Under the pieces are notes generated by a model. It was not told where the DNA came from. It saw only the letters and a program-made list of their open reading frames with translations, and searched no databases. Source: Nanoarchaeota archaeon (GTDB lineage: Archaea > EX4484-52 > LFW-46). From it: a DNA stretch of 9,033 nucleotides. Location of the stretch: NCBI GenBank assembly GCA_018897155.1, contig JAHILE010000039.1, positions 1 to 9,033 on the forward strand. Direction: 5' to 3'. This document shows, in pieces, positions 2,759 to 9,033 of this stretch. Position numbers and translations under genes: made by a program. Positions within the stretch are counted from its first letter, which is position 1; the number at the start of each line of letters is the position of its first letter.

Positions 2759-2865
2759 CTTTTTTGTACCGCAGGTACGGACAAATCAATACGCTCAATC
2801 ACAAGTTCCGCCTTTTTCCGGGCGCTTAGAAGGACAATCACACCTATAATCACCAGGGATGTCAA
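2752..2865 (-). CDS. Possible small single-helix membrane protein downstream of archaeosortase
   Basis: A short open frame begins at a TTG (2865) that overlaps the archaeosortase stop, or at GTG 2853. It would give 37 or 33 residues: a hydrophobic helix LVIIGVIVLLS, a basic ARKK stop-transfer, then AELVIERIDLSVPAVQKSL. The order of helix, positive charges and soluble tail is protein-like, and the overlap would couple it to the archaeosortase. Against it are the non-ATG starts, lack of a clear ribosome site and the small size. It could also be chance coding in an intergenic region. I recognise no family. Confidence 0.3.
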   Translation of the reverse strand: MTSLVIIGVIVLLSARKKAELVIERIDLSVPAVQKSL

Positions 2866-3809
2866 TCCTTATATCGATAAGGGTGTTTTTTATTGCTGAC
2901 ATCCCCTCCGGTATCTTTCAGGGCGATCATCCAGAATATTGTTATCCATATGAAAAATATTATCCATCCAAGATGCGTATGCACTGTAAGCAGTGCACTT
3001 GCTCCATAATAATACCCCACAAGGAAAAGGATCACAACACGGATGATGTTTGCAAAAAATGTGCCAATAATGCCCATTGCAAAAAGAGCGGCCTTTCTTG
3101 CATGCGAAACTTTCAAGTCATACGACATTGCGATGAATGCCGCAATGAAGACAGCCATTGAAGTGACTCCGGAACAGAACGCTCCGACAAAGACCCTGAA
3201 TTTTGTATCTGATGCGATCAAAGTATATCCCCCTATTGCTGAAACCGAATAAACCGGGATTCCAAGAAGATTGACAACCTTTTCTGTTATATAGGTAATC
3301 AGCCCTATCAGCGGCATGTAAAGTGCTTCAAATTGAAAATTAACGCTTCCGGTCATCCCGTATTCATAGCCTGCCGCAGGCAGTATCAGGATTCCAAGCA
3401 CTATGAAGAATCTTGAAGAAAATCTTATCATCGGGTTTTCTGATCTTGTTATGCTTGAAAGAAAGTCTTTTTTCACCATAAGGAATACTGCTGTGCCAAA
3501 ATAGGCCGCAGCCAGAAGAAGCGGAACTATTGTTCCGCTGTTTCTTGTATAAAATATCGCAAAAAGCATTAGCACACTCAGCCCTAAAAAAGAGCCCATC
3601 TCAAAAAGCTCCTTTTTCTTTACAGTGCCTTCAAGCATCTGGTAACCGATGAGCAATCCTCCGCTTGCGAATAAAAGCAGGAATGTGAGTATTATCTGGA
3701 CTTTGTTGAAATCGCCCTGCACAAAGCCGTGATAGAATATCTCAAAGAGATAAAGAAACGACCCAAGGAGCAATACAATGCTTAATATCTGAATTCTTTC
3801 GAGCTTCAT
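2862..3809 (-). CDS. Archaeosortase/exosortase family protein (multi-pass membrane transpeptidase)
   Basis: A 315-residue membrane protein with about eight or nine helices. The archaeosortase active site is visible in order: Cys212 in VGAFCSGVTS, Arg257 in FFANIIRVVILF, and His in TVHTHLGW (H277 or H279) before the last helix. Archaeosortases act on the outer face of the membrane, cleaving secreted proteins within a C-terminal tripartite signal and, where studied (ArtA of Haloferax), helping attach them to lipid. The His at the third position is like most exosortases; haloarchaeal ArtA has Arg there. The five genes starting 250 bp away and pointing in the opposite direction all carry PEF-like tails, so they are the obvious substrates. 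An ArtC-like (PEF-CTERM) specificity is inferred from those tails, not from the enzyme. The ATG at 3809 lies about 27 nt from a TATA-like box, suggesting a leaderless message. Confidence 0.9.
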   Translation of the reverse strand: MKLERIQILSIVLLLGSFLYLFEIFYHGFVQGDFNKVQIILTFLLLFASGGLLIGYQMLEGTVKKKELFEMGSFLGLSVLMLFAIFYTRNSGTIVPLLLAAAYFGTAVFLMVKKDFLSSITRSENPMIRFSSRFFIVLGILILPAAGYEYGMTGSVNFQFEALYMPLIGLITYITEKVVNLLGIPVYSVSAIGGYTLIASDTKFRVFVGAFCSGVTSMAVFIAAFIAMSYDLKVSHARKAALFAMGIIGTFFANIIRVVILFLVGYYYGASALLTVHTHLGWIIFFIWITIFWMIALKDTGGDVSNKKHPYRYKD

Positions 3810-3830
3810 AAGTGGATATATTAAAGCAAT

Positions 3831-3841
3831 GGATTTAAAAA
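3831..3841 (-). promoter_or_regulatory. TATA-like box of the archaeosortase gene
   Basis: The minus strand reads TTTTTAAATCC, centred about 27 nt before the archaeosortase ATG. That is the usual archaeal distance from TATA box to transcription start, so the message probably begins at or next to the start codon. No ribosome site is seen, which agrees with leaderless translation. Confidence 0.5.
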
Positions 3842-3918
3842 GCTATGTTTAATACCGCTAAATAGTGAAACATTAAAAAAACGTCAGATGTCTTATGTTT
3901 TTGCAAAATAATGAAAAG

Positions 3919-4029
3919 ATTTAAATAGGGATCAAGAATAGTATAGTAATTATTTCAAATCCGCTCCTGATTCGTCAACACATAAATTTAAATACTTCAC
4001 TCTAGCATAGTGCATAGGTTTAAATACTT
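3919..4029 (+). promoter_or_regulatory. Promoter region with twin TATA repeats before the first sorted protein
   Basis: The 254-bp space between the archaeosortase and the first substrate gene holds no convincing gene. The element TTTAAATACTT occurs twice on the plus strand, at 3987-3997 and 4019-4029, 32 nt apart, each followed by an (A/G)CATAG motif. The second would start transcription near 4046, leaving a short leader with GGTGA at 4054-4058, 5 nt before the ATG at 4064. The first would start near 4014. A third AT-rich box, ATTTAAAT at 3919-3926, is symmetrical and could serve either strand. Confidence 0.5.
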
Positions 4030-4063
4030 TAACATAGTAAAAGTAAACTATCTGGTGAACGCC

Positions 4064-4579
4064 ATGAAAAAACAACTGTTATTTTCTGCAATAATTGGAA
4101 TGATGCTTTTTGCAGGATTTGCTTTCGCAAACCTGACAATAAAAATAACTCCAAACCCTGTAATTGTTATGGTTGGCACAACAGGAAATGCTGTTGTACA
4201 GATAATAGACACAGACGTGACCGGCAATCATGATGTATCAATAGATGGATACATATGCAAAGATACTGACGGAAACAGAAACACATGTGAATCCACTTTT
4301 ATAAATCAGGTAAACGCAGAAATGTATGTTACATTTGACAACGGGCTTCTTGGAGCAGTAACAAATTCAACTGATGAAGCTTTGTTAAATATAACACTTA
4401 GTGCAAATGCTCCGTCAGACGTAAATTATCTTTTCATAGTCCGCTCCAAACTTGGATGGCAAGAAGCAGTTGTAACTGGTGAAACCACTTCAGTTCCGAT
4501 ACCGGAATTCCCATCATTTGCAGTTCCTGCAGTGCTTTCAATGATAAGCATGGGGCTTGTAAGAATGAAATACAGATAA
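4064..4579 (+). CDS. Secreted protein with PEF-CTERM-like sorting tail, family A (copy 1)
   Basis: A 171-residue exported protein. Residues 1-22 are a signal peptide (MKKQLLFSAIIGMMLFAGFA-FA). The ectodomain, about 23-145, looks beta-rich and contains the acidic loop C65-KDTDGNRNT-C75-E, where the two Cys could form a disulfide and the D/N residues could bind calcium; both ideas are inferred. A second family mark is GWQEAVVTGE (131-140). The tail is IPEFP (146-150), a hydrophobic helix with Ser and Met, then VRMKYR at the very end: the three-part archaeosortase signal. Several sequons suit N-glycosylation. The start is chosen at 4064 because it has a signal peptide directly after it and GGTGA 5 nt before; an in-frame ATG at 4010 would add 18 polar residues and lies before the likely transcription start. 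It is a paralogue of the gene at 6398-6916. Confidence 0.88.
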   Translation: MKKQLLFSAIIGMMLFAGFAFANLTIKITPNPVIVMVGTTGNAVVQIIDTDVTGNHDVSIDGYICKDTDGNRNTCESTFINQVNAEMYVTFDNGLLGAVTNSTDEALLNITLSANAPSDVNYLFIVRSKLGWQEAVVTGETTSVPIPEFPSFAVPAVLSMISMGLVRMKYR

Positions 4580-4587
4580 ATTAAAAT

Positions 4588-4612
4588 ACGGGCTGGGTTT
4601 CCAGCCCGTTTT
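4588..4612 (+). terminator. Hairpin terminator after the first sorted protein
   Basis: A perfect 9-bp stem, ACGGGCTGG / CCAGCCCGT, with a GTTT loop is followed by four T. It sits 8 nt after the stop codon. Nearly the same hairpin follows the next gene, so the terminator seems to have been copied along with the gene. Confidence 0.6.
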
Positions 4613-4616
4613 AAAG

Positions 4617-4651
4617 TATTTAAATTAATGAGCTCATAATAACAACAGGTG
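4617..4651 (+). promoter_or_regulatory. Promoter and ribosome site of the second sorted protein
   Basis: TATTTAAAT at 4617-4625 is a TATA-like box. About 17 nt later comes TCATAATAACAACA (4634-4647), an exact 14-nt match to the same position before the third sorted protein, where transcription should begin. AGGTG at 4647-4651 is the ribosome site, 7 nt before the ATG. Confidence 0.5.
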
Positions 4652-4658
4652 TGGAATT

Positions 4659-5159
4659 ATGAAAACCTCTGCAATATTGATTTCTGCGATTTTTGGATTA
4701 ATGCTTCTCTCAGGAGCAGTAATGGCCTGCGGCGGCGACTATTGCCAAGAGGATCTTCTTGAAGTGTCAATACTTTCCCCGGATGACGATGAAACCACTG
4801 GTTCTTCAGTAGTTATAGTTGCTGAGGCAACATACAACGGCTCAATCAATGAGAATATTACTTGCATAGCCATGGTGTATTTAGACGAACCGGGTGCTGA
4901 TGACTCAGATACAGTATATTTAATGAATTATAGTGGTGGTACATATACTGCATTAATTACCGGTCTTTCACCAAGTGATTCTGCATACGAGGTAGAAATA
5001 AAGTGCAATATAGCTGTGAATGGATGCAACTATGAAGAAGAGGACTTAGAACACTGGTATGTTGAAGAACCTCCGGCAATACCGGAATTTCCGACATCCG
5101 TAGCACCAGTAATTCTTTCAATGCTAAGCATTGGCTTAGTCAGAATGAAATATAAATAA
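4659..5159 (+). CDS. Secreted protein with PEF-CTERM-like sorting tail, family B (copy 1)
   Basis: A 166-residue exported protein: signal peptide about 1-23 (MKTSAILISAIFGLMLLSGA-VMA), an ectodomain of about 110 residues, then the tail IPEFP (141-145), a helix, and VRMKYK. The ectodomain follows the family B plan: a first strand ending in ..SP followed by TTGSSV, a central Cys, the turn ITGLSPSDSAYEVEIKC, and a final E..HWYVEEPP. This resembles an Ig-like or fibronectin-type beta-sandwich, though I cannot name a family. It has five Cys after cleavage (C24, C29, C69, C116, C123) and is very acidic. C24 directly after the probable cleavage site is reminiscent of a lipobox, but VMAC is a poor match. 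Its last 26 codons closely match those of the gene at 6398-6916 in DNA as well as protein, pointing to recent copying or gene conversion. Confidence 0.87.
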   Translation: MKTSAILISAIFGLMLLSGAVMACGGDYCQEDLLEVSILSPDDDETTGSSVVIVAEATYNGSINENITCIAMVYLDEPGADDSDTVYLMNYSGGTYTALITGLSPSDSAYEVEIKCNIAVNGCNYEEEDLEHWYVEEPPAIPEFPTSVAPVILSMLSIGLVRMKYK

Positions 5160-5166
5160 ATTAATT

Positions 5167-5189
5167 CGGGCTGGGTTTTCAGCCCGTTT
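5167..5189 (+). terminator. Hairpin terminator after the second sorted protein
   Basis: CGGGCTG / CAGCCCG form a 7-bp stem around GGTTTT, followed by TTT and an A-rich stretch. It is almost identical to the hairpin at 4588-4612. Confidence 0.55.
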
Positions 5190-5214
5190 AAAAATATTCT
5201 GAACCAATACAAAG

Positions 5215-5264
5215 ATATATAAATTATGATTTCATAATAACAACATACAATAACAACGTAGGTG
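5215..5264 (+). promoter_or_regulatory. Promoter and ribosome site of the third sorted protein
   Basis: ATATATAAATT (5215-5225) is a TATA-like box, followed by the shared 14-nt element TCATAATAACAACA at 5232-5245. A second AATAACAAC appears at 5249-5257. AGGTG at 5260-5264 lies 5 nt before the ATG. Confidence 0.5.
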
Positions 5265-5269
5265 TAGTT

Positions 5270-5713
5270 ATGAAAATCTCAACAATATTGATTTCTCTTA
5301 TTTTTGGACTAATTTTTACAGCAGCATTTGTATCTGCAACTCCCACAGCAGATAAAGTAACAATAACAAATCCGACTAGCGGCTCAACAACAGATTCTTC
5401 TGTAGAGCTTAATGCAACATCCACAGCAAACGCAATTTGTGAATATATGGTTGATGGCGGCGGTTGGACTGTTATGGACATAACTGGCGGTACAAATCAC
5501 GGCCAACTTCTATCCGGATTAAGCGCAGGATCACACAACGTTCATGTTCACTGCTGTAAATTTGATAATCCCGGCCAAGGTTGCGGCCAGGCTATGAACG
5601 ATCATGTTATATGGGATGTCCAAGAGCCTCCGGCAATACCGGAATATCCGAGCGCAGCAGTCCCTGTGATTCTTTCTATGCTGAGTTTTGGCATCATAAA
5701 AATGAAAATGTAA
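5270..5713 (+). CDS. Secreted protein with PEF-CTERM-like sorting tail, family B (copy 2)
   Basis: A 147-residue exported protein and the shortest of the five. Signal peptide about 1-23 (MKISTILISLIFGLIFTAAF-VSA). The family B ectodomain is easy to trace here: VTITNPTSGSTTDSSVELNA, CEYMVDGGGW, LLSGLSAGSHNVHVHC and HVIWDVQEPP, matching a single Ig-like beta-sandwich of about 95 residues. It has a CC pair (95-96), two further Cys (57 and 105), and several His and Gly residues in the second half. The tail is IPEYP (123-127), with Tyr in place of Phe, then a helix containing SMLS and a short basic end IIKMKM. No terminator hairpin follows, and only 46 nt separate it from the next gene, so some read-through is likely. 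Confidence 0.87.
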   Translation: MKISTILISLIFGLIFTAAFVSATPTADKVTITNPTSGSTTDSSVELNATSTANAICEYMVDGGGWTVMDITGGTNHGQLLSGLSAGSHNVHVHCCKFDNPGQGCGQAMNDHVIWDVQEPPAIPEYPSAAVPVILSMLSFGIIKMKM

Positions 5714-5717
5714 AAAA

Positions 5718-5754
5718 ACTATATATGCTTTTAAAGCCATATTTCTATCGGAGA
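5718..5754 (+). promoter_or_regulatory. TATA-like box and ribosome site of the fourth sorted protein
   Basis: ACTATATAT at 5718-5726 comes directly after the previous stop. GGAGA at 5750-5754 is a strong ribosome site, 5 nt before the ATG, and differs from the GGTG sites used by the other four genes. Confidence 0.45.
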
Positions 5755-5759
5755 TATGA

Positions 5760-6209
5760 ATGAAAAGAACATGCATTTTCATTTCTGCGATGTTTGGATT
5801 GATGCTCGCCTCAGGCGTTGTTATGGCTGCTTGCAATAACGAACTTCTGATGGATATAAGATACCCTGTGGAAGATTCCACAACAAATTCTACAATAAAG
5901 CTTATTGCAAATGTGAGTGATGAAGATACAGATTGCATGTACACGCTTGACGATAGCGCTGTTTCATACATAATGTTTAGAACACCTTCCGGAAAAATAC
6001 ATAATGCAACAATCTCAGGCCTAACACCGGGCAAGCACAAAATTGAAGTATACTGCATAAGAGAACTAACATCTTGCACTTATGAAGCCGAAAAAGATGT
6101 TGAATGGCATGTGGAAGGAAATTCACCGTCAATACCCGAATACCCGACAGCAGTATTGCCGGCAATGCTTTCAATATTGAGCCTTGGGCTTGTGAAAATG
6201 AAAAAATAA
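5760..6209 (+). CDS. Secreted protein with PEF-CTERM-like sorting tail, family B (copy 3)
   Basis: A 149-residue exported protein. Signal peptide about 1-24 (MKRTCIFISAMFGLMLASGV-VMAA). The family B plan is seen again: MDIRYPVEDSTTNSTIKLIA, CMYTLDD, ATISGLTPGKHKIEVYC, and VEWHVEG before the tail. Cys residues at 25, 59, 99 and 106 correspond roughly to those in the other two B copies, suggesting conserved disulfides. The tail is IPEYP (125-129), a helix with Ser and Met, then VKMKK. As in the first B copy, a Cys follows the likely signal-peptide cleavage site (MAAC), a weak lipobox resemblance only. A hairpin with a T-run lies immediately downstream. Confidence 0.86.
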   Translation: MKRTCIFISAMFGLMLASGVVMAACNNELLMDIRYPVEDSTTNSTIKLIANVSDEDTDCMYTLDDSAVSYIMFRTPSGKIHNATISGLTPGKHKIEVYCIRELTSCTYEAEKDVEWHVEGNSPSIPEYPTAVLPAMLSILSLGLVKMKK

Positions 6210-6242
6210 AGAAATTGTATAAAGCAATTTCTATCTTTTTTT
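6210..6242 (+). terminator. Hairpin and T-run terminator after the fourth sorted protein
   Basis: AGAAATTG / CAATTTCT form a perfect 8-bp stem (6210-6217 with 6225-6232) around a 7-nt loop. A run of seven T follows at 6236-6242. This hairpin is unrelated in sequence to the GGGCTGG terminators of the first two genes. Confidence 0.6.
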
Positions 6243-6344
6243 AGACGAAGTCTAAAAAGCTTGCTGAGATTTACTCGGCATGATTTTCAGTTTGGATAAT
6301 CCGCAGCAAGCGGACCAAACTGAAAAATAATCGACAGTTGCCGA
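6238..6344. other. Cluster of potential hairpins in the 188-bp gap before the fifth sorted protein
   Basis: Three further inverted repeats follow the terminator. TTTTTAGAC / GTCTAAAAA (6238-6258) is a perfect 9-bp stem with a GAA loop. TGCTGAG / CTCGGCA (6262-6280) is a 7-bp stem with one G-U pair. TTTTCAGTTTGG / CCAAACTGAAAA (6284-6326) is a perfect 12-bp stem enclosing a second 5-bp stem TCCGC / GCGGA. An alternative pairing, GCTTGCTG (6259-6266) with CAGCAAGC (6304-6311), would exclude the last two. No reading frame explains this region. It could be a small RNA, a bidirectional transcription barrier, or a remnant of a small mobile element. Confidence 0.45.
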
Positions 6345-6354
6345 AAAAAAGGCG

Positions 6355-6393
6355 TATATATACTTTCGAGCACCACATAATTAGCCCGGTGGA
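6355..6393 (+). promoter_or_regulatory. TATA-like box and ribosome site of the fifth sorted protein
   Basis: TATATATAC at 6355-6363 is the TATA-like box; GGTGGA at 6388-6393 is the ribosome site, 4 nt before the ATG. The stretch GGTGGACGCTATGAAAAAA closely matches the start region of the first sorted gene (GGTGAACGCCATGAAAAAA), showing the copy includes the ribosome site. Confidence 0.5.
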
Positions 6394-6397
6394 CGCT

Positions 6398-6916
6398 ATG
6401 AAAAAAATCTCAACAATATTTTCAGCAATTTTCGGATTAATTTTAATCGGCAACTTAGTTTCTGCAGATATGTCTATAAGCATGATTCCAAATCCTGTGA
6501 CATCAATTATTAATTCCACCACAACAGCCACAGTACATGTTAATTCAAGCACAGAAACAAACGTTTATGTGTATATTGATTCCTGGATATGCAAAGACAC
6601 TAACGGAAATAGAAACACATGTGAAGGCCCATTGCTTTCAAACGGCGGCGGTGAAATAAAAGTCACTTTCGCAAACAACCTTTTTAGTTCGCAAACTGAT
6701 TCTTCCGGCAACGCCGGATTAAAAATAGCTCTTGGTCCTGGCGCCGATGCAGGTGCAAACTACCTCTTTAAAATAAGGGCAAACAACGGCGGATGGCAGG
6801 AAGCAGTTGTGACAGGAGAAAGCAATGCGGTTCCGATACCGGAATTCCCGACATCTGCGGCTCCCGTAATTCTTTCAATGCTAAGCATCGGCTTAGTCAG
6901 GATGAAATACAAATAG
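6398..6916 (+). CDS. Secreted protein with PEF-CTERM-like sorting tail, family A (copy 2)
   Basis: A 172-residue exported protein, co-linear with the family A protein at 4064-4579. Signal peptide about 1-23 (MKKISTIFSAIFGLILIGNL-VSA). It shares PNPV near the mature start, the loop C65-KDTNGNRNT-C75-E, the [VT]TFxN segment, NYLF.[IV]R and GWQEAVVTGE. The tail is IPEFP, a helix with SMLS, and VRMKYK. The strict conservation of the C-x9-C acidic loop while the rest has drifted marks it as the functional or structural core of family A; calcium binding is only a guess. An in-frame ATG at 6338 would add 20 residues with charged ends and would lie upstream of the TATA-like box, so I reject it. The gene ends 1 nt from the end of the convergent DUF457 gene, with no terminator between. 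Confidence 0.88.
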   Translation: MKKISTIFSAIFGLILIGNLVSADMSISMIPNPVTSIINSTTTATVHVNSSTETNVYVYIDSWICKDTNGNRNTCEGPLLSNGGGEIKVTFANNLFSSQTDSSGNAGLKIALGPGADAGANYLFKIRANNGGWQEAVVTGESNAVPIPEFPTSAAPVILSMLSIGLVRMKYK

Positions 6917-6917
6917 A

Positions 6918-7454
6918 TCATCCATTAATTGCTTTCTTTAGAGTATAGCGCGCCTTGACAATCCTGCGCCTGTTTCTAAGATAAAGAACGTCTTCTACAA
7001 AGAATGCGGAGAGCATTATCATTGAATATATTGCCAATGCTATCCCATCCCTTGATATCAAAGGAGAATAAAACGCGTTTGTTGCAAGCAGCTCAAATTT
7101 TGGAATAAGAACCACTTCTGAAGAAAATGGATAAAACAGCTTGACCTCGCCGCCATAAAACATATCTGCAGTAACATGTCCTGTAAGCATCACAAGAAGG
7201 ATGAGCGCGTATGTCTGCAGGCGTATCGATGTCTTTCCTTCATACTTATGGAATGTAAAAAACGCTATCAATGGAATAAGAACAACAATGAATATGTTGT
7301 GGAGCGTTCCTCTGGCAGCCATGCCGAAAAAATGATCTGCATCAATCAATACTGACAGGAAAGCCAATAATATTATGGGCTTAAGCCTGCGCTCCCCCCG
7401 GAAGACCGCCATTCCAGCCATCAAAGAAAAGAAAAAATGAAAAAGCGTGTCCAT
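6918..7454 (-). CDS. DUF457/YdjM-like membrane-bound putative metal-dependent hydrolase
   Basis: A 178-residue membrane protein with about five helices. The family's likely metal ligands are present: H6 in the first segment, D38-A-D40-H41 (SVLIDADHFFG), H52 in RGTLHN, and H93 with D97 in TGHVTADMFYGG. This pattern is typical of DUF457/YdjM (LexA-binding inner-membrane hydrolase-like) proteins, which share the metal-site layout of membrane-embedded hydrolases acting on lipids, though the substrate is not known. Its length is normal for the family. The ATG at 7454 lies about 23 nt from the TATA-like box TATATTTATT (7472-7481, minus strand), so it is probably leaderless. It converges on the fifth sorted protein. 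A role in membrane lipid or surface chemistry would fit the neighbours, but this is conjecture. Confidence 0.78.
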   Translation of the reverse strand: MDTLFHFFFSLMAGMAVFRGERRLKPIILLAFLSVLIDADHFFGMAARGTLHNIFIVVLIPLIAFFTFHKYEGKTSIRLQTYALILLVMLTGHVTADMFYGGEVKLFYPFSSEVVLIPKFELLATNAFYSPLISRDGIALAIYSMIMLSAFFVEDVLYLRNRRRIVKARYTLKKAING

Positions 7455-7662: not shown

Positions 7663-9033
7663 ATGAAATTATTGGCGGCAAACTTAATAAACTATTCGCA
7701 TGTTTCCCAAATATATCAACATGCAACGATTTTAAATACGAAAATCTATGTAAGCGCTGACAAAGTGATACATGCCGAACGGATTGATTGTCCTGTTTGC
7801 GGCAGCAAATGCAGCTACAACGGCTCAAACAATTCCGGCAATATTGTTTCACGCTCAATAGATTCATTTTTCAAAAAAGGGCAGCAGTATTGCAAATATT
7901 GCGATAAGACCTGCCAAACCGAAAACGAATTTGTGGATTCGGTAAAAAACGATTTGGATCAAATGGTTCTTTCTGTTGCGCTTTCTTTGCGCAAAATATT
8001 CGCAAGCTATCCGGACATTTCAAAGCATATTTCCGAAGTGTATGGAATCAGTATCAGTGAATCTACTTTGAAAACAATTTGCGAAAAGAAATTATATGAT
8101 TTTAACGATCTTGAGATTGATTTTGCTGTGGAAGATGATTTTTACGGATATGACGAGCAATATTTGACAGTTGGCGGCAAGAAAGCATATCGGATTGTTA
8201 TTTTTGATTTCAAGAACAACAAGCCCATTTATGAGGCAAAGCATGAAGATCTGACAAAGGATACTTTGAAAGGCATATGATACTTTGAAAGGCATATTGA
8301 AAGACGTGTTTTCGGATAAATCGCCAAAAGGCTTTGTTTTTGACATGAAAACAATGTATCCTGACGCATTCAAAGAAGTTTTCGGAAAAAAGATACAGCT
8401 TCAATATTGCGTTTTTCACTTGAACAAGCTGATTTTGGACGAATATCAAAAGGCTCTTAAAGTCGGAAAAAAGGTGAAGTGGAATATTATCCACTGCCGC
8501 AATATGTATTCGCTGTTTGACACATTTTATGACCGCAAGCAGGAACTTGATTTGATAGAAACTTTGGAAAAAGAGCTGAACAAATATAATGAAAAGCTTA
8601 AAGGAATAGAGGACCTTGATACTCATTTCAAAAACGCGCAATTTTCAAATAAATGCAAAACACGTGAAAACAAAATTGCCTATTGCACACGATTATATGA
8701 AAAAGAGCTTATGTCTGTTTTTAGGGATCATTTGTATGCCGAAAAACTGAGGCGAAAAAGAGAAAAAACAGGATTAAAGCCAAGAGCAAAAGACGATGCA
8801 AGAAACCGGCTGGATAAAATTATTAAAAAGAGCGCATACTATCCAAAGGCTTTGCAGAAGCGCATTCAGAAAATCAATGATAATTTTGATCTGTTTACCG
8901 GCTCAGACGGCGCATACCTTACAAACAATATGCTGGAAGGCTTTTTCGGCTCAACGCTCAAAAAATTCAGAAAAAAAGAATTTCATTCCGACGAGGGCTT
9001 GAAGACTTATTTCACTTTCAGAAAAATAAAGCA
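7663..9033 (+). pseudogene. Zinc-ribbon DDE transposase, frameshifted by a 19-bp duplication and cut by window edge
   Basis: The first frame gives 205 residues to a TGA at 8278-8280. The protein continues without further stops in another frame from 8279 to the window end. Dropping one of two adjacent 19-bp copies joins them into about 450 residues. The N-terminus has a zinc ribbon: CPVCGSKC (43-50) and CKYCDKTC (77-84). Next comes a helical DNA-binding part (about 95-145), then a DDE core: D164 in YGYDEQYLTVGGKKAYRIVIFD, D221 in GFVFDMKTMYPDAF followed by YCVFHLNKL, and E419 in TNNMLEGFFGSTLKKFRKK (numbers for the repaired protein). The layout resembles IS6- or ISL3-type archaeal transposases, but I cannot assign the family. 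As read, the protein stops before the second and third catalytic residues and would be inactive, unless the duplication is a sequencing or assembly error. Confidence 0.85.
8260..8297 (+). repeat. Exact 19-bp tandem duplication inside the transposase
   Basis: GATACTTTGAAAGGCATAT occurs twice back to back (8260-8278 and 8279-8297). Nineteen is not a multiple of three, so it shifts the frame and creates the TGA at 8278-8280. With one copy removed, the reading passes smoothly from KDTLKGI into LKDVFSDK. Confidence 0.95.

Follow-up and report, generated by a model that had tools for sequence, protein, structure and literature searches.

An ArtC-like archaeosortase gene clustered with five putative substrates in a probable Nanohaloarchaeota draft genome

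The stretch of DNA analysed here (the window, 9033 bp) is a complete contig (C39) of a draft genome which is 1.43 Mb in size and 96% complete. In a draft assembly a contig of 9 kb may have been misbinned, and tetranucleotide composition was non-discriminating. Beyond the window, the genome was covered by sequence searches and by inspection of the regions flanking their hits. We found that an archaeosortase gene on the minus strand (2862-3809) lies divergent from five consecutive open reading frames on the plus strand (4064-6916) which encode small secreted proteins, so that a first-pass annotation of this DNA had correctly described the enzyme as facing its array. Two further membrane proteins are encoded on the minus strand on either side of these genes: a DUF1616 protein (147-1670) and a YdjM-type protein (6918-7454). 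A HEPN/MNT-type pair, also on the minus strand, sits between the archaeosortase and DUF1616 genes; it consists of a HEPN-domain protein (1675-2097, PF05168 at 30 bits) and an overlapping winged-helix plus nucleotidyltransferase-like protein (2069-2689). Two plus-strand frames at the far end (7663-8280 and 8285-9031) were read as one transposase-like protein with a frameshift near 8280; the second frame has a weak MULE match and the end of the contig falls inside this protein. A sigma-70 promoter scan of the window performed at chance level, is not relevant to archaea and was discarded.

The minus-strand enzyme is 315 amino acids in length, with about 9 hydrophobic segments by hydropathy. It passed the superfamily cut-offs of PF09721 (Exosortase_EpsH, 55 bits against 25.7) and TIGR04178 (52.8 bits against 23), and it carries the Cys, Arg and His residues of the exosortase/archaeosortase superfamily in membrane segments. 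The first-pass annotation had called it a complete archaeosortase from C212, R257 and H277/H279; these residues are where it had put them, and all four are kept in every relative whose sequence covers them. Homologues which are 43-58% identical also share the motifs CSG, NxxR and HTHLGW wherever their sequence covers these positions. When the enzyme was profiled against the named subfamilies, ArtC (TIGR03762) was the closest at 90.1 bits, missing the cut-off of 100, followed by general models at 53 and 44 bits, while ArtA, B, D and E gave no match at E ≤ 1. The ArtC alignment covers profile positions 100-274 only, and the relatives of the enzyme score 50-63 bits against this profile, also below the cut-off. 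Enzyme relatives in named genomes were all from Nanohaloarchaeota MAGs, which makes a DPANN member of this phylum the most likely source of the genome. No relatives were found in viral contigs. It should be noted that the enzyme gene is broken by a stop codon in G019 (isolate GLR72; L014 2111-2113) and frameshifted in the CSMAG_1836 assembly (L018 near 5972), each of which reflects either decay or assembly error.

All five secreted proteins contain a signal-peptide-like N-terminal stretch. Substrate 1 (4064-4579, 171 aa) has a beta-rich domain containing CKDTDGNRNTC and a tail at 4499-4576, and substrate 5 (6398-6916, 172 aa; tail 6836-6913) is its paralogue. Ig-like bodies were found in substrate 2 (4659-5159, 166 aa; tail 5079-5156), substrate 3 (5270-5713, 147 aa; tail 5636-5710; weak Big_7) and substrate 4 (5760-6209, 149 aa; tail 6132-6206). 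The starts of substrates 1 and 5 given here are corrected from those of the longest open reading frames, which begin at GTG 4010 and TTG 6338 respectively: because all five ATGs (4064, 4659, 5270, 5760 and 6398) follow a GGTG/GGAG-like element, with an AT-rich TATA-like stretch also identified by eye, the true starts are probably ATG 4064 and ATG 6398. A GC-rich hairpin and possible terminator follows substrate 1 (4588-4609; the scanner assigned it to the minus strand, although the hairpin is symmetric) and a near-identical copy follows substrate 2 (5167-5186), so the substrate genes may be separately transcribed.

After removal of the tails, substrates 1 and 5 formed one family, which includes tailed proteins of three other genomes (G006, G020 and G033), and substrates 2, 3 and 4 formed a second. 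Structure prediction gave substrate 2 a beta fold of seven strands (pLDDT 80), which has weak matches to glycosidase Ig-like domains (best E 1.6e-3, TM about 0.4-0.6). The model of substrate 5 is beta-rich and of low confidence (pLDDT 65), and for this reason the antibody-like matches of the substrate 1/5 domain model were taken to mean only “beta-rich”. Overall the substrates have the appearance of small domains, Ig-like or of another beta-rich kind. This is in keeping with display at the surface without pointing to a lattice in particular, and the surface-coat role proposed in the first pass is putative.

The proteins had been described as sharing an ending of IPE[FY]P, a short helix and [RK]MK, and this held for all five, each of which ends in VP/PA/PS-IPE[FY]P, the helix and [RK]MK. 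Within the tail 12 of 28 columns are invariant, and conservation exceeds that expected of hydrophobicity, extending to I-P-E-[FY]-P plus fixed P, L, S, S and G positions. A tail profile searched against the whole genome matched the five window genes alone, at E 1e-16 to 1e-19 against 0.76 for the next hit; this excludes chance as the source of the tails and leaves the window genes as the sole carriers of such tails in this genome. The exact pattern ATHCCNGARTWYCCN was found at 10 sites in the genome, 5 of them in the window; the others (C40, C45 twice, C58 and C62) were rejected, each being antisense, out of frame or away from the C-terminus of any secreted open reading frame. Against the PEF-CTERM model (TIGR03024, cut-off 23 bits), substrates 2 and 5 scored 15.1-15.3 bits and substrate 1 scored 11.3, with no match for substrates 3 and 4; the tripartite PEF-CTERM layout of motif, helix and basic residues is nonetheless present at the extreme C-terminus of these secreted proteins. 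The tails of substrates 2 and 5 are 95% identical (88% in DNA) on unrelated bodies, which suggests that neighbouring genes in the array have exchanged tails or undergone gene conversion. A hydrophobic helix with a basic end can anchor a protein alone, and processing of the tails is a prediction here; they could be plain membrane anchors that are never processed, with the enzyme nearby for other reasons. We consider this highly improbable because the motif is kept beyond hydrophobicity and because, as described next, the tails recur in relatives next to enzymes of this family.

We compared the window to a phylum sample of 34 genomes, 8 of which contain the window enzyme. Tails, of which the weaker (E 0.002-0.06) were taken by eye using one rule for all genomes, were found in 7 of the 8 enzyme genomes versus 4 of the 26 others (Fisher: P = 4e-4; this and the other co-occurrence tests across the 34 genomes ignore phylogeny). 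For the five genomes with strong tails alone, the association between enzyme and tails was not significant (P = 0.07). Contrasts within genus or family agree: the window's genome (G000) versus its congener G001, which lacks both enzyme and tails; G019 versus most of family f4; and G006 and G011 versus G016. The first-pass annotation had proposed looking for the same neighbourhood in related genomes, and enzyme and tails do adjoin in three: two tail genes are divergent from the enzyme in G019, as in the window, one tail gene is immediately upstream of the enzyme in G011, and the order in G006 is tail, DUF1616, enzyme. In some relatives the two are no longer linked. The enzyme of family f7 lies among unrelated genes with weaker tails on other contigs, in G023 the enzyme is present with tails undetected, and the ArtC-like enzyme was undetected in G020 and G030, which have tails, and in G015 and G022, which have strong tails in clusters near contig ends.

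The window enzyme is the only ArtC-like enzyme in its genome. A genome-wide search for other archaeosortases, suggested in the first pass as a check on the pairing, did find one (C58:4109-4705; L068 4109-4708; 199 aa; TIGR04178 50-52 bits), but it is a much poorer match to ArtC, scoring 18.5 against 90 bits. Its best named match is exosortase H (XrtH, 57 bits versus a cut-off of 86), it falls under the cut-off of every named subfamily, and Cys, Arg and His motifs are present by eye. It represents an unnamed phylum-wide family, with members in 29 of the 34 genomes (some matches weak), including one at 69% identity in the congener G001; in both G001 and the window's genome it adjoins coiled-coil and pilin-like genes. 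As a real archaeosortase-family protein found in nearly all relatives, including the four genomes (G015, G022, G020 and G030) in which tails were found and the ArtC-like enzyme was undetected, it might be the enzyme which processes the tails, leaving the window enzyme to serve other targets. Its distribution makes this very unlikely: many genomes that encode it have no PEF tails, its presence is not associated with tails across the 34 genomes (Fisher: P = 0.47), it was undetected in G019, where tails and the ArtC-like enzyme both occur, and no PEF tail was found in its neighbourhood. It seems to be the phylum's general enzyme, with the window enzyme as the accessory one. The pairing of window enzyme and substrates is therefore favoured by the exclusive tails, the worse second archaeosortase and the three linked relatives, and is weakened by the loss of linkage elsewhere.

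In family f7 we also observed a secreted protein with SPG[LI]G, a helix and a basic end (PGF-CTERM-like) adjoining the small archaeosortase (tailed proteins at L102 2379-2900, L103 2252-2860 and L104 2209-2814). The window's genome contains no tail of this PGLG type (best E 0.025, within an open reading frame of 57 aa).

The locus had been described as self-contained, and one enzyme with five substrates is indeed present; however, the DUF1616 and YdjM-type genes also belong to it. The DUF1616 membrane protein (PF07760, 44.2 bits) has one or more Wzt_C-like ectodomains (PF14524, 40.2 bits, two stretches) and was found in all 8 enzyme genomes versus 1 of the 26 others (Fisher: P = 5e-7, phylogeny ignored), its gene adjoining the enzyme in G006, G019 and both G011 copies. 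The YdjM-type protein (PF04307, 35.6 bits) is a predicted metal-dependent hydrolase; six homologues share the invariant residues H6, DxDH (D38/D40/H41), RGTxHN and HxxxD (H93/D97), as predicted for a metal site. Its gene abuts the tail genes in the window, G006, G015 and G022 and is away from the tails in G004 and G020. A text search of open-access papers found neither protein linked to archaeosortases or exosortases, the sole co-mention being a DUF1616 protein listed as a glycoprotein (PMC8241124). Both are probable partners of the sorting system.

Taken together, we are confident, short of certainty, that the locus encodes a compact archaeosortase system which has diverged from ArtC/PEF-CTERM, is so far found only in Nanohaloarchaeota and would process five tails for surface display. 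We call it divergent because ArtC is the best model and yet enzyme and tails miss the curated cut-offs. There is a serious possibility, somewhat short of an even chance, that it is instead a standard ArtC/PEF-CTERM system which scores below the cut-offs only through DPANN sequence divergence, a narrower filing of the same mechanism; no other named subfamily comes near the ArtC score and the tails resemble the PEF-CTERM IPEFPT, but the cut-offs are missed by the enzyme, its relatives and the tails alike, and the match is limited to part of the ArtC profile. More doubtful is the proposal that this is a separate Nanohaloarchaeota archaeosortase subclass with its own tail signature and with recurring partners (the glycan-binding-like DUF1616/Wzt_C protein and the YdjM-type metal hydrolase) that would contribute to anchoring, perhaps by offering a glycan or a lipid as acceptor, in which the five-gene array would shuffle surface Ig-like modules for host-cell contact.

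In the divergent system that we favour, Sec signal peptides would export the five small proteins, and the tails would halt them in the membrane. The enzyme, which is polytopic and has a Cys-Arg-His site, would then cut at or near IPE[FY]P, remove the helix and couple the exposed C-terminal end to a lipid of the membrane or to another acceptor, so that the small Ig-like and beta-rich domains would end up displayed on the cell surface. By analogy with ArtA, removal of the helix and attachment of the substrates to the membrane surface by the window enzyme is most likely; the cleavage site, lipid transfer, the roles of the partners and a display or coat function are putative. We know of no biochemistry on the enzyme of this lineage.

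The targets of one archaeosortase are often scattered, which makes specificity hard to dissect; one enzyme and five targets in a single 4-kb stretch come close to a minimal test system. The locus also offers a clue to the means by which DPANN archaea may present proteins to their partner cells, and the DUF1616 and YdjM-type proteins are candidate partners in C-terminal sorting. In the open-access literature, which was the scope of our search, archaeosortases and Nanohaloarchaeota are co-mentioned in a single paper, and there not as a joint finding.

Among known systems, the closest is Archaeosortase C/PEF-CTERM (TIGR03762/TIGR03024; Haft et al. 2012, as cited in PMC5244752), which is the best-scoring enzyme subfamily and has the same IPEFP-like motif, helix and basic end. 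ArtC-bearing ANME genomes contain a handful of substrates each, as does the window's genome (PMC5244752). Unlike that system, the window enzyme and its tails score under the cut-offs, the substrates are in tandem beside the enzyme, DUF1616 and YdjM-type genes are neighbours, and the lineage is Nanohaloarchaeota. In Haloferax volcanii, experiments showed that substrates require ArtA for processing of the C-terminus and for attachment to lipid (PMC7157517). Archaeosortase A/PGF-CTERM can serve as a working model of a polytopic enzyme with C-terminal cleavage and lipid attachment; it differs in its tail motif and the window enzyme has no ArtA match. Exosortase E/VPEID-CTERM, a bacterial enzyme which Haft et al. 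reportedly described in 2012 as dedicated to a single neighbouring target, is similar in that dedication and differs in being bacterial and in having one target rather than five. The C58 archaeosortase belongs to the same superfamily and is distinct from the window enzyme in being phylum-wide, smaller and XrtH-like, with pilin-like neighbours and no PEF tails. The chemistry and the type of signal are already known; what is new is the lineage, the exclusive and clustered layout of one enzyme with five substrates, the divergence of both halves to below the cut-offs and the DUF1616 and YdjM-type genes that recur as neighbours.
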